NCBI RefSeq assembly: GCF_000565215.1
Contig: NZ_CP006934.1
Coordinates: 868,001-932,000, forward strand
Source: Spiroplasma sabaudiense Ar-1343
GTDB taxonomy: Bacteria > Bacillota_I > Bacilli_A > Mycoplasmatales > Mycoplasmataceae
Direction of reading: 5' to 3'
Length of the DNA: 64,000 bases
This document shows positions 28,580 through 38,258 of the stretch, one piece after another. The first letter of the stretch is position 1, and each line of letters begins with the position of its first letter. Made by a program: the position numbers and the translations under genes. Below the pieces are notes generated by a model. That model was not told the DNA's origin. It worked only from the letters and a program-made list of their open reading frames with translations, and did no database searches.

Positions 28580-30502
28580 TTACCCCTCCACTTTCATTGC
28601 TTTTGAACCGGTTGTCTTTACAACTCCCTCAGAAACTTTGCTAGCATCTTTAACTTCAATAATAAGTTCTGTTTTGTTATGATCTATATCTATAATATTC
28701 GCTTTTCCACCAAGTGCTTTCAAAAGTTTTTCAGCTGTTTGGCTTTCAGCTTTGGTTCCTTTTGCAAGTGATGCTTTTAAAGCTTGAGTTGCAACACTCT
28801 CTTCACCAACTTCTTCACGACCTGGTGTTTTATAATCTTTAGCTTTTATAATTGCTCAGAATCCGAAGAAGTAGGCTGGGGACATAATGGCTAAACCATA
28901 AATTGGGATTCATAATGCTCCAGTTCTTCCAGCTCAGGCACCAAAGATTGTGTATCCTGGAGCTCCTTGAGTTGCAACCCCAGATGAGAATCCAGGAATA
29001 ACTCCGAAGAAGATTCAATCAATAAATCCTGCGGCAAACCCTTGACCAACAGTAACGTTTAATAAGTATGCCATCATGAAACTAATTCCTGCCATAAATG
29101 CATCAAATAAATAAAGCATTGGAGCAACAAATAGGAATGAGAATAGAATTGGTTCTGTAATTCCAGTTAAGAAACTTGTTGCGGCTGCAGAAATTAAAAT
29201 TCCTGAACTTTGTTTACGATTTTCTGGTTTTGAAAGCATTATCATTGCTGCGGCCCCAAATGGATATCCATATTGCATAAATGCAAACCTTCCAGACATA
29301 AACATTGTTCCAACCTCATTTGTAGTGCGGTTAAAGGCAATTTTTCAAGTATCACCCACTTGGATTAATTGATCTGAAAAGTTTTTAAATCAAACATCGT
29401 TGGCTTCTAGAATTCGATATGCTTCATCAGTCATTTCTCATCCGTTTCCACCCATTCATTTCATTTGTTCAAAGAAGATTGGGTAAGCCCCTGATGTCAT
29501 TGTTCATCCAGTAATAACATTATTTGCATCAATAACTGGGGTTAATCATTCTCCTCCAGCTGAAGTATATCAGAATGGAGTATATTGTACGTGGTGTAAT
29601 CCCATTGGAATTAATAGACGTTCAGTAATTCCAAAAAACATTGCAACTAATGCTCCAGCTGTTCTTGAATATTCTTCTTGTCCCCCAACTCCCATAAGAG
29701 AACCCAATCCAGTTCCAATTAAATAAAGTAATTGTAAGAATCCTGGTCAGATAAAAAACAACGCAATTCCTGATATAACTCCTAAAAAGAATCCAGCAAT
29801 TGGAACAAATTTTTCTCCTCCAAAGAATCCTAAAACTCTTGGTACTTTGATATTATAAGTTTTATTATGAACGATTGACATTAATCAACCGACCACAATT
29901 CCTCCCAATACTGATAAGTCTAGTGTTGGAGAAATTCCAAGAACACTTTTTAGCATTCCTTTGTTTGTTCCCACACTAATTAATCCATTATCACCTGCCA
30001 GTTTTCATGGATCAAATTGTACAACCGCATCACCTGCAGTGTTGGTTGTTGGTAAAAATAATGCCATCATTGTTGCTGACATAACAACATATGCAATGAA
30101 GGCTGATACAGCGGCTACACCTTTAGATTGTTTTGCAAATCCAAAAGCAACCGATGTACAAAATAATACTCCAAGACAAGCAAATACTACATCCCCGATT
30201 GATTTCATTATATTAAAGAAGTTAACTCAGCCATCGCCTCAGTTTCCTGAAACGGCTGCAGCTGAGAATCCCCCCCCAATTCCTAGAAATAGTCCAGCAA
30301 TTGGTAAAACCGCAATCGGGAAGACAATTACTCGCGCTAAATTTTGTAATTTGGAAAAACTGGCACCTTTAAATTGGTTTCAATTTTTTCCAAATTTTGT
30401 ATTAGCGAAAGCGGCTTTTTTTTCAGCTCTTTTGGCTTGACGTTGTTGTTTCAAAAGTTCTTTGTCAACTACTTGCGTGCTAACATTTTTGTCGTTTGCC
30501 AT
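28580..30502 (-). CDS. ptsG: PTS glucose-family EIIC with degenerate IIB domain
   Basis: 640 residues. Ten or so membrane helices; family motifs include GIPGGGF-like GIGGGFSAA near residue 77, the ITE..LF segment GITEPILFSFLFVAP and the GITERLLIPMGLHH segment. These define the Glc/GlcNAc/maltose EIIC family; sugar not proven. C-terminal residues ~588-640 look like IIB (LKALGGKANIIDID) but the active Cys position reads DHNKTE, and the domain stops early. An in-frame run of eight C (plus strand, 30270-30277) lies in the GGG codons. TAGGAG precedes the ATG. Confidence 0.92.
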
Positions 30503-33766: not shown

Positions 33767-34867
33767 CTATTTTAATTCTTTGAACTGATAGCGATTGTTT
33801 GGGCCAATAAAGTTAATCAAAAACTTTTCATCATCTTTAATTGTGCCAATAAAGTTATATTTTTTATCCTCATCAACGAAATCATCTTTTAAAATAATAT
33901 GGCATTCCCCTTTGTAGTGACTGTCATTATTGTTTATTATGACAATATCACCAAACTGGTACTTGGGTTTTTGTCTCCCCACAGGAATACTTTCTTCTTT
34001 GTAATAAACCCTTGTCATAGTGTAACGAATAAAGCAATCGGTAATATCCATACGACGGAAATGCAAGTGATTAAATAAGATCTTTTTTTCAACATCAGAA
34101 ATTTTTTGAATTATTTTTAAGTCAAAGGTGATTTCATCGCGATTTATTTCTGAAACTTGAGTTAACTCTTCTTTTGAAGCATAAGCATTTCCAAAAAAGA
34201 TAACATCAATTTCATCACAATAAAATAAAATTTTGGCTTGGCTAGTAACATCAAAAAAGCGCATAAATTCCAAGGTTGGAAATTCTTTATTACCCAAAGC
34301 TGGTCCCTGAGTTCCTGTGTGACTACCAATAAAAGCTGCCGTGCTTAGGCGGTGGCTTAAATATTTTTGATTAGCTGCTTTAAAAAAGTCAAACGGAATG
34401 GCGGTGTTTTTTTGCGGATAAAAGTTATGACAACCACTTAAATGACTTTTTATCGGTTTGAAGTCCATAACGTTAGTAATTAAATGGTCGTTATTTGACA
34501 TATTTAATTGGACATCGATTCCATAGCGATTGTGAGTTAGTTCAGCAATTTCACTTGGTAAACTTGGAGAATCCAGGCGAATGCAATCAATTCCCATTTC
34601 TAAACATTTTTTTGGATCATTTAAATCAATACCCAAACGCTGTAGCGAAACATTTTCAAAATCTGCAATCGTGTAAAAACCAATACTTTTAGCATATTTT
34701 AAGGACTTGTTAATTTTTTCAACTAACTCAATTGGTTGGTTATTAACATGGAAGTAGCTTGTAAATACTTGAGTATAGCCAAGTGATTTAGCCAAATCTA
34801 AATACGCTTTATCTTTTTCAAAAGTTGATTGTTCTGGATAAATTGATATTCCTAATTGTTTTTTCAT
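33767..34867 (-). CDS. DUF871/MupG-family 6-phospho-glycosidase
   Basis: 366 residues, full family length. N-terminal TIM-barrel part begins LGISIYPEQSTFEKDKAYL, with QLNMSNND and CHNFYPQKNTA typical of the family (the SN..L and HNFYP motifs); C-terminal domain of the cyclophilin-like type from about residue 245 (RRMDITDCFIR, VGRQKPKYQFGDIVIINNND). The characterised member MupG of S. aureus cleaves MurNAc-6-phosphate-GlcNAc. A wall-less mollicute has no such sugar of its own, so here it more likely hydrolyses a disaccharide phosphate delivered by the adjacent lactose/cellobiose-type PTS or wall fragments from elsewhere. Confidence 0.9.
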   Translation of the reverse strand: MKKQLGISIYPEQSTFEKDKAYLDLAKSLGYTQVFTSYFHVNNQPIELVEKINKSLKYAKSIGFYTIADFENVSLQRLGIDLNDPKKCLEMGIDCIRLDSPSLPSEIAELTHNRYGIDVQLNMSNNDHLITNVMDFKPIKSHLSGCHNFYPQKNTAIPFDFFKAANQKYLSHRLSTAAFIGSHTGTQGPALGNKEFPTLEFMRFFDVTSQAKILFYCDEIDVIFFGNAYASKEELTQVSEINRDEITFDLKIIQKISDVEKKILFNHLHFRRMDITDCFIRYTMTRVYYKEESIPVGRQKPKYQFGDIVIINNNDSHYKGECHIILKDDFVDEDKKYNFIGTIKDDEKFLINFIGPNNRYQFKELK

Positions 34868-34883: not shown

Positions 34884-34916
34884 AAAAAAACAGATTCATG
34901 GTGAATCTGTTTTTTT
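34884..34916 (-). terminator. terminator after PTS EIIC
   Basis: 15-bp perfect stem AAAAAAACAGATTCA / TGAATCTGTTTTTTT, 3-base loop, between the EIIC gene and the mupG-like gene; it may be leaky. Confidence 0.85.
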
Positions 34917-34939: not shown

Positions 34940-37133
34940 TTAAGCACTGGTGCTAGCAACTTTTGTTGCAGCTTTTTGGGCTTTTTTTTCCATAATTTTA
35001 TCTCATTTTGGTTTTAAAATTGGTACTTTAGCATCGCGTTGTTCACGAACAGCCTTAGCTTTTGTTAAATATTTTTCTTCTTTAATTTTAGCTTTTTGCA
35101 TAATTGCTTCTTGACGAGTTTTTAATTTCTCTTTATCAACCATGCGTTTTTCTCAAAATTCGTTAACAGTTTCAGCATCGTTAATTGCATTTTCGGCCTT
35201 CATTTCAAGAGCCGAAACTTTGCGACCAGTAATAACTTCAAAACGGTATTCTGGATCATCATAATAACGCATTTCTAAGTTATATTTATCAATATCTGAA
35301 GCTTTTAGTTTTTTGAAGTAATTTGCATTATCAATTAAGACGAATGGGAAGTACATCACAAGACTAATTCCTAGACAAATAGTTGCTGGAATTAGCGCCA
35401 TTGGGTCAAGAGAAGTAATTACCGCTCCAATAAACCATGGTGCTGTTCAAGGGGTTGCAACATATGAATATTTTACAACTCCTAAAACGTCTGGTGAGAA
35501 GACCCATCCAATAATTAAATTGAAAATTGGGGCAAAAATAAATGGTACAACATAAATTGGATTTAAAATTAATGGGTAACCAAAAATTGTTGGTTCATTA
35601 ATTTGGAAGACTCCCGCAGGGGTTGCATATTTTGCAACCTCACGAAGTTCTTGACGTTTTGAAACAGCAAAGGTCATAATTAATAATCCTAAAGTTGCTC
35701 CACTTCCTCCAACATACATATAAGAATCAAAGAAAGGTTTGGTAAATACTCCCATTTGTCCTGAGGCAGCTGCTAATTCATAACCCATTGAAGTTACAAG
35801 AGTAGCATTAATACCTAAAATCATTCATCAAATTGGTTCAAAGATTCCAGCCATTAGGTTTGAACCATGAACTCCAAAGAATCAGAAGAATCCAGTAAAG
35901 AATACAAAAGCAATTCCTAAACCAATTCCCCCACTTCCTGTTGCAAAACCAATAAATCAACTTGTAAAGATTTTATAAATAAAGGCTCCAGCTCCAAATT
36001 GAGTGGCTCCAAGTGTTATTACTTGGAATGAGGCTGATAAAATATAGCCCCCGCTTTCTGAGTCAAGGTAGAACGACATTTTAGCAGCTTGATCTAATCA
36101 AGCAAAGTTCGATTTTCCTTGCAAAGCTGCAATCGCAGTAGTTCATACTGCCTGATCTGCAACACCTAAGGCATTATAAGCGTCAATAAAGGCTTTTTGA
36201 TTTTCAATCGAGTTTTCTAATGCTAAAATTTGTAGCATTGGTGTTAATAAATCTTTATATTCAACAAAGGCAGCTAGCGCTCCCTTTTCAGCGAATAATA
36301 AATCAATGTTATCAGCATCAATTGAGCCAAACATTTTTCCAAATTCAGCAGAGGTTAATGTAAAGTAGCTACCACTATTTACAAATCAACCCCCCCCCAA
36401 CAATTGCCATTGATAAAAAGATAACGTTAACAGCTCCAACAGCTCCCAATGTAATGACAACAGGTAGGAAAACCGCAAATGATTTTCCAACAGCTGGTGG
36501 AACACCATCTGGTAATTTAATATTTAGAGCGCGAACCCCTGAAAGATATATAAAAAATTCAGTTGCTAACAATCCAAAAATAATTGCTTGAATTAATCCA
36601 ACCGCTCCCATGAAGAAAGTTATTTCCCCCATACAAGCTAGTAGGAATGCTGACAATGATACAAAACCTGCAATAATTGGTGCTTTAAATTGACGACTTA
36701 AAGCAATAAAGTATCCAAATAGAAAGGCAAAATAAACAGCCATCATTCCAACTGTAACTGTATTAATGTGGCCGAATGCCAATCCCCCAATTTTTGAGGC
36801 TTGCCCTCAACCGTTTCCTGTGTCTGCTAATAGGGCAGTTACCCCATCTCATGAAACATCAGGATTAGCAGCTTTACAAATTAGTCCTAGTATTGAAACA
36901 TATCCACTACCAGCACCACCAAAAATAATTGCGTTAATTAAAATCCCGATTGAACCAGCAATAATTAACGGAATCATCGTTCCAAAAGAGTCACGAATCG
37001 CTGCTAAATGGCGTTGATTACCAACTTTTGCCATTCCTGGAACCAGAGACTCATTAATTCATTGTTTAAAAGTCCGTTTTTCTTTTGCTTTTTCACGCGA
37101 CTTTTTGACATCAAATTTTTCAACTTCTGCCAT
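34940..37133 (-). pseudogene. PTS lactose/cellobiose-family EIIC, frameshifted at a C9 tract
   Basis: Two halves of one EIIC gene lie in different frames. The first half (37133 to about 36390) starts with GAGGAG-preceded ATG and runs through several helices to IVGGG; a run of nine C on the plus strand (36390-36398) then shifts it into LICK and a stop at 36375. The other frame picks up at once as WFVNSGSYFTLTSAEFG and continues to 34940 through the conserved GVHGSNLM, FQINEPTIFGYPLILNP (the EIIC NEP motif). Eight C would restore a ~730-residue protein with a long basic C-terminal tail. No other lesion is seen, so this is either phase-off, a recent mutation or a sequencing error. Confidence 0.88.
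36390..36398. repeat. mononucleotide C9 tract in EIIC gene
   Basis: Nine C on the plus strand (nine G in the coding strand) within GGG codons of a membrane loop. It is the exact point of the frameshift. A related G-rich run of eight in ptsG (30270-30277) is in frame. Confidence 0.9.
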
Positions 37134-37181: not shown

Positions 37182-37502
37182 TTATTTACTAATTTTTTTA
37201 TAAACATCAATAAACTCTTTCGCTAACAAAATGATTGTTTGCGTTGTCAGTAATTGATCTTCTGCGTGAATAAATAGAATTGGAAAAGTTATTTTTTCTC
37301 CTCCAGCTTCAGCACTTACAATATCCATGTGAGTTTTTTCTGCTGTTAAAATCGATTTTTCAGCTTCTTCAATTAAATTCTCAGCTTCTTCAAAACGACC
37401 ATTTTTGGCAGCACCAATTGCTCCCATCGCATGACCCTTTGCTTCTCCAGCAAAAGCGATTATTGTAAAGGAAATTTCCTCAAAATTTCAGGTTTTACTC
37501 AT
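37182..37502 (-). CDS. PTS lactose/cellobiose-family EIIA
   Basis: 106 residues, all-helical. ISFTIIAFAGEAKGHAMGAI matches the N-terminal helix; the phosphorylated His lies in ILFIHAEDQLLTTQTI near residue 80. Passes phosphate from HPr to the separate EIIB. Lies 5 bases after the EIIB stop and 48 bases before the EIIC gene. Confidence 0.93.
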
Positions 37503-37507
37503 TTTAT

Positions 37508-37804
37508 CTAACCTAACATTCTTTGGGCCATTTCGCAGGCCTCTTTTGCTTTTGCTAAAGCATAAATATTTGCCGGAATTACTTCAACCGGCTTACTTGT
37601 AAGTTTTGTTAAATCTCCTAAAGCATAGCTAACTTGTGGGCCAACCATAACAATATCCCACTCGTTAACAACTGATTTTGCTTCTTGAAGTGACATCGCC
37701 TCAATAGTTCAATCAAGACCTGTTTTACGAGCATGGTCTGTCATCTTTTTAACAAGAGTACTGGTGCTCATTCCTGCTGAACAGCATAGTAAAATTTTTT
37801 TCAT
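37508..37804 (-). CDS. PTS lactose/cellobiose-family EIIB
   Basis: 98 residues. KKILLCCSAGMSTSTLVKKM carries the phosphocysteine loop (C-x-x-G-x-S/T) at residues 7-13. VMVGPQVSYAL follows as in CelA/ChbB proteins. First gene of the PTS operon; AGGAG lies ~10 nt upstream. Confidence 0.94.
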
Positions 37805-38258
37805 TTTCTTCAATCTCCTATAAAAAATTCTATAAAACTATTATAACAATTATAGAATTTTTTTCCACTATTTTTTAAAAAAAACAAATTTTTATCAATA
37901 TTATTAAAACTTTAAGAAAGGAAAACAAGGTTTTTAGAGAATCAAAAAAAACATCAACCTATAAATGTCTATCTTAGATAAATTATCAACCGCAATTAAA
38001 TAATAGTGTTAAATAATAAGGGGGTTTTAACGCTATTATATTAGATAAAGTTATCTACCAAAATTGTGTAGACTAGCTTGTATAATCACCACAGCTGCCT
38101 TTTTTATTTAATTCAAAAAACCGCTTCAATTAACTAAAACATTATCATATTTATCCAAATTTCTTTGCGATACAAAAGCCAGTGAGAAATCAACACTTTT
38201 TCAAACAGCCAGTAGAAAATTTTAAGATAAATATGTTAAAATTTTTAAAGAGGTTTTT
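37805..38258. other. 454-base gene-free control region with palindromes
   Basis: Lies between the divergent PTS operon and a small plus-strand membrane gene. It holds the PTS promoter with a 14-bp inverted repeat, two short operator-like palindromes (GATAAATTATC at 37977-37987 and TAGATAA-AG-TTATCTA at 38042-38057), and between them a 13-bp hairpin (38001-38038) with a loop of GGGGG type. No open frame, tRNA or repeat family is seen in the rest (38060-38250). Confidence 0.5.
37822..37863 (-). promoter_or_regulatory. PTS operon promoter inside a 14-bp inverted repeat
   Basis: Perfect arms AAAAAATTCTATAA (37822-37835) and TTATAGAATTTTTT (37850-37863) flank a minus-strand -10 box TATAAT at 37840-37845. 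A dimeric regulator bound to the arms would cover the polymerase site, so this is a likely operator. No -35 of note. Confidence 0.55.

Follow-up and report, generated by a model that had tools for sequence, protein, structure and literature searches.

A run of nine G in the lactose/cellobiose-type PTS EIIC gene of Spiroplasma sabaudiense: a probable recent slip rather than an evolved switch

The window analysed here, a stretch of 64,000 nucleotides from Spiroplasma sabaudiense Ar-1343 (NZ_CP006934.1, positions 868,001 to 932,000), contains a set of minus-strand genes for a phosphotransferase system (PTS) of the lactose/cellobiose type. These are EIIB (37508..37813; PTS_IIB PF02302, E 1.6e-15), EIIA (37182..37502; PTS_IIA PF02255, E 2.6e-31), an EIIC gene in two pieces and, downstream of EIIC, a MupG-family 6-phospho-glycosidase (33767..34867; MupG_N/MupG_C; PF19200 E 8.5e-81, PF05913 E 4.8e-34). 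Open reading frames were read with code 4, in which TGA encodes tryptophan, and EIIB, EIIA and the glycosidase are all open and carry Pfam matches, in agreement with an earlier sequence-only reading that had called all three intact. The occurrence of a MupG-type 6-phospho-N-acetylmuramidase in a PTS operon of a presumably wall-less bacterium suggests, on predicted function, the scavenging of peptidoglycan sugars. Upstream of EIIB, an inverted repeat (TTCTATAA...TTATAGAA, 37828..37857) overlaps a promoter-like TATAAT, and a similar repeat is present in both same-genus relatives when the three upstream regions are aligned, making it a possible candidate operator. Between EIIC and mupG lies a stem-loop flanked by runs of A and of T (34884-34916), and hairpins like it occupy the same place in both relatives (G048 and G049); it may represent a terminator or a processing site. 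Scans of the window with Rfam and for tRNAs gave no matches, and a plasmid search returned one weak match to Carnobacterium.

The two pieces of EIIC meet at a run of nine C on the plus strand, or nine G in the gene, read directly at 36390..36398 on the minus strand. It falls a third of the way along the gene, in codon 246 of some 730, and it breaks the frame. As assembled, the N-terminal part (36375..37133, minus strand) encodes 252 amino acids that end in IVGGGLICK, with the stop codon shortly past the run, just as had been claimed for a tract of nine. The C-terminal part (34940..36398, minus strand) lies in another frame, within an open reading frame that extends over 34940-36508, and stays open to the end of the gene. 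The companion claim, that eight C would restore an intact second half, was confirmed as well: internal stops were looked for in the read-through of the shorter run and none was found, and the resulting protein can be aligned over its full length to the intact genes of two same-genus genomes. The halves match complementary parts of the 319-position EIIC profile PF02378 (positions 1-176 and 154-319), and no single frame of the assembled sequence holds the whole EIIC domain by PF02378 or TIGR00410. With the latter model the halves score 93.1 and 156.1, each below the cut-off of 236, and a whole relative (L025) scores 236.1. A stretch of about 140 residues separates the parts matched by PF02378, and the C-terminal tail is long; both features, within 34940-36398, are common to the same-genus relatives. 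The gene is thus a lactose/cellobiose-type EIIC that is off as assembled, and its frame is set by the length of an internal homopolymer, as in phase-variable (contingency) genes.

Some match to the read-through protein was found in 43 of 60 genomes of the family. In the same-genus relatives G048 and G049 the gene is whole (84% and 83% identity, respectively), with internal TGA (Trp) codons only, and the order EIIB-EIIA-EIIC-MupG is identical. When the window was compared with 60 kb from each of these genomes, 40 G048 genes and 31 G049 genes had a counterpart in it; for four and six of these, respectively, no one window ORF reached 85% coverage. EIIC alone is divided between two window ORFs of high identity; the other incompletely covered genes have differing ends or are distant paralogs. 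At the position of the run, the relatives write Gly-Gly-Gly-Trp as GGG GGA GGT TGA (G048) and GGT GGA GGT TGA (G049), so that the run is kept in neither. Of the 22 loci collected for the EIIC alignment, L041, a partial frame of 391 aa, was excluded, and none of the 19 more distant homologs aligned has the Gly triplet itself. Because the relatives write the same residues with other codons, the run is new in the S. sabaudiense lineage and a synonymous accident, and the tract shows no conservation among relatives beyond the needs of codon use, such as a contingency gene would be expected to have.

The age of the break can be gauged from the C-terminal part, where none of the 153 columns invariant in five relatives has changed in S. 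sabaudiense; in the N-terminal part, two of 121 invariant columns differ. For the invariant C-part sites, neutrality predicts approximately 198 amino-acid changes over the whole branch, and the absence of any would place a permanent break within roughly the last 1.5% of the branch, a rough figure given that the synonymous distances are large. Signs of a decayed pseudogene (extra stops or frameshifts, changes at conserved sites) were sought in the read-through and the C part and were not encountered, and decay of an old pseudogene was rejected on the strength of the unchanged columns. The C-part dN/dS is higher on the S. sabaudiense branch (0.188) than on those of the relatives (0.102 and 0.123), and residues unique to S. 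sabaudiense number 58, against 23 and 22 unique to the relatives. Of the 58, 31 fall in the unconserved tail, and much of the higher ratio comes from that tail. With no invariant C-part column changed, the frame break is either very young or not real.

A break that is not real would be an assembly or consensus error: a miscount by one base in a gene that is whole in the strain. The S. sabaudiense genome, one contig of 1,075,953 bases, has ten G/C runs of at least seven (five of seven, four of eight and one of nine), and the EIIC run, one base longer than any other, is the single longest, which speaks for such a miscount. So do the intact neighbouring operon genes and the lack of decay in the C part. 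On the other hand, in other genes four runs of eight are read in frame, and for another genome, that of Spiroplasma clarkii, the same group reports having sequenced with Illumina and checked by Sanger (PMC6007557). Error is rather unlikely but is the main rival, and ranks second after a recent slip, which is considered the most likely explanation.

The remaining nine, seven or eight long, all lie in frame within open reading frames. By Pfam, their products include ribosomal protein L2, ThiI, two EIIC-EIIB proteins and two PTS proteins that have EIIA-2 and IIB domains, with no Pfam match for two of the nine. Five of all ten runs are in PTS genes, a share that may reflect the Gly-rich membrane segments of these genes; within the window, about 0.085 of 0.375 expected runs of at least seven fall to ptsG and the C part of EIIC. 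Runs of seven C gave five overlapping matches in the window versus a mean of 0.50 in dinucleotide shuffles, and a synonymous redraw of 50 window ORFs gave a mean of 0.115 runs of at least eight versus two observed, a number reached in none of 200 redraws. Scaled by length to the genome, the redraw predicts about two such runs, versus five found. The excess of runs of eight or more is mild, and the run was itself the reason for choosing the window.

A third explanation is evolved phase variation, with the run as a contingency tract under selection that turns the sugar transporter on and off. In its favor, the run is nine long and the gene is out of frame, no MutS was found in the genome (a search for the MutS_V domain, which was found in 11 of 14 control genomes), and switching between eight and nine bases is described for other genes (PMC2831843). 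Moreover, a glucose-type PTS EIICB gene (ptsG, 28580-30502) has an in-frame run of eight (30270..30277, minus strand) that it shares with G048. This is the run that the earlier reading had set beside the EIIC tract; it is real, but it is only five long in G049 and is one of several ordinary Gly-codon runs. Further points weigh against an evolved switch: the EIIC run is kept in neither same-genus relative and lies away from the 5′ end, there is no other run of nine in the genome, and an in-frame run of eight also occurs in rplB, the gene for ribosomal protein L2, which cannot be switched off.

Evolved tracts in the family, moreover, look different. Runs of at least nine G/C occur in 15 of the 60 family genomes, S. 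sabaudiense included, and in neither same-genus relative; of those inspected, some fall in frame within long open frames and others at apparent frame breaks. In one family genome (G053), poly-G tracts of 13-21 bases stand between an upstream TTGAC and a downstream TATATT-like or TAATCTATAC-like element (L168, L169, L170, L171), forming promoter spacers that are mostly upstream of lipoprotein or signal-peptide genes. A 12-base element, TTGACGGGGGGG, occurs five times in this genome and in none of the other 59. These tracts look like a set of phase-variable promoters, and the literature matches listed contained nothing on such a poly-G promoter set in this genome. The tract in the window is unlike them. 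All told, nothing points to selection for a switch, and evolved phase variation of EIIC is improbable. The earlier reading had posed phase variation or error, which takes in both outcomes; its view of the gene as off and of a run of eight to nine G as slippage-prone stands, and the frameshift is recent. An evolved switch is not supported, given the run's absence in both same-genus relatives, its place at codon 246, its being alone of its length and the run of eight in rplB.

A related proposal, that G runs of seven to nine in several PTS permease genes form a joint, low-rate bet-hedging set for sugar uptake, with EIIC caught in the OFF state, is scarcely probable. Yet another is that the frameshift is fixed and that, within the G run, a slipping RNA polymerase or a shift of the ribosome yields some full-length EIIC. 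This would account for the fully conserved invariant columns of the C part, and transcript slippage at poly-A frameshifts is described for Buchnera (PMC2831843). A recent slip, however, accounts for the conservation equally well, and since the aligned homologs read in one frame, no relative would need such a rescue, which makes it very improbable. Programmed frameshifting as the main reading was rejected for the same reason, all aligned homologs being read in a single frame.

What remains, with somewhat better than even confidence, is that Gly codons by chance formed a G run and that this run, in a genome with no MutS match, slipped by one base: a change revertible in principle, with no evolved switch. 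Counting against it are the fit of a sequencing error to the same facts, the higher C-part dN/dS with its larger number of unique residues, the mild excess of runs of eight or more and the five PTS genes among the ten with runs of at least seven. According to this explanation, the lactose/cellobiose-type EIIC would have been whole until very recently; a synonymous change would have created the G run in its Gly-Gly-Gly codons, and replication slippage would then have added one base in the sequenced clone. In several bacteria, one-base slippage in runs of six to nine is reported at approximately 1e-3 to 1e-7 (PMC2831843), and a single event of this kind would be the simplest account. EIIB, EIIA and MupG would stay intact, and the EIIC product would be cut at 252 residues, lacking its substrate-binding half. 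In an alignment with the solved EIIC 3qnq, the C part covers residues 235-422 and with them H250 and E334, which bind substrate. The aligned residues lie past the break and are missing from the N part. A product that ends at residue 252 without them should not transport, and uptake of the cognate sugar should thus be lost. The same slippage could also revert the change, so a culture may be mixed.

Comparable cases are known (PMC2831843). In the swrA gene of Bacillus subtilis, as here, a revertible change of a homopolymer from eight to nine (A8/A9) turns the gene off; there, the tract is poly-A at the 5′ end and switching has been measured, whereas the EIIC tract is poly-G and lies a third of the way in. 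Short homopolymer frameshifts in wall-less bacteria, again as here, are exemplified by vaa (an adhesin gene) of Mycoplasma hominis and p78 (of an ABC-transporter operon) of Mycoplasma fermentans, both with 5′ poly-A tracts and observed switching; EIIC differs in encoding a sugar permease and in its run not being kept in relatives. Finally, in Helicobacter pylori, a single G added to a short poly-G run likewise inactivates pldA, but tracts of all four bases are over-represented in that species, whereas S. sabaudiense has one G/C run of nine.

Elsewhere in the genome, a fibril-like gene (L179, 1408-2994; G000:C1, near 366,300-367,800) is cut by one in-frame TAA, and its counterpart is open over 522 residues in both G048 and G049. 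We take this gene to be fibril from its PNP_UDP_1 match. In a review, the fibril gene of S. sabaudiense is described as probably disrupted by a stop codon (PMC7609405).

Should the slip be real, the culture that was sequenced would, as assembled, be unable to take up the cognate sugar, and the locus should be annotated as a recent frameshift and not as two genes or a long-dead gene. An error, by contrast, would mean a single wrong position in the record. Known biology would be changed by neither, and the comparison with relatives illustrates how, in this family, a chance homopolymer frameshift may be told from evolved tracts.
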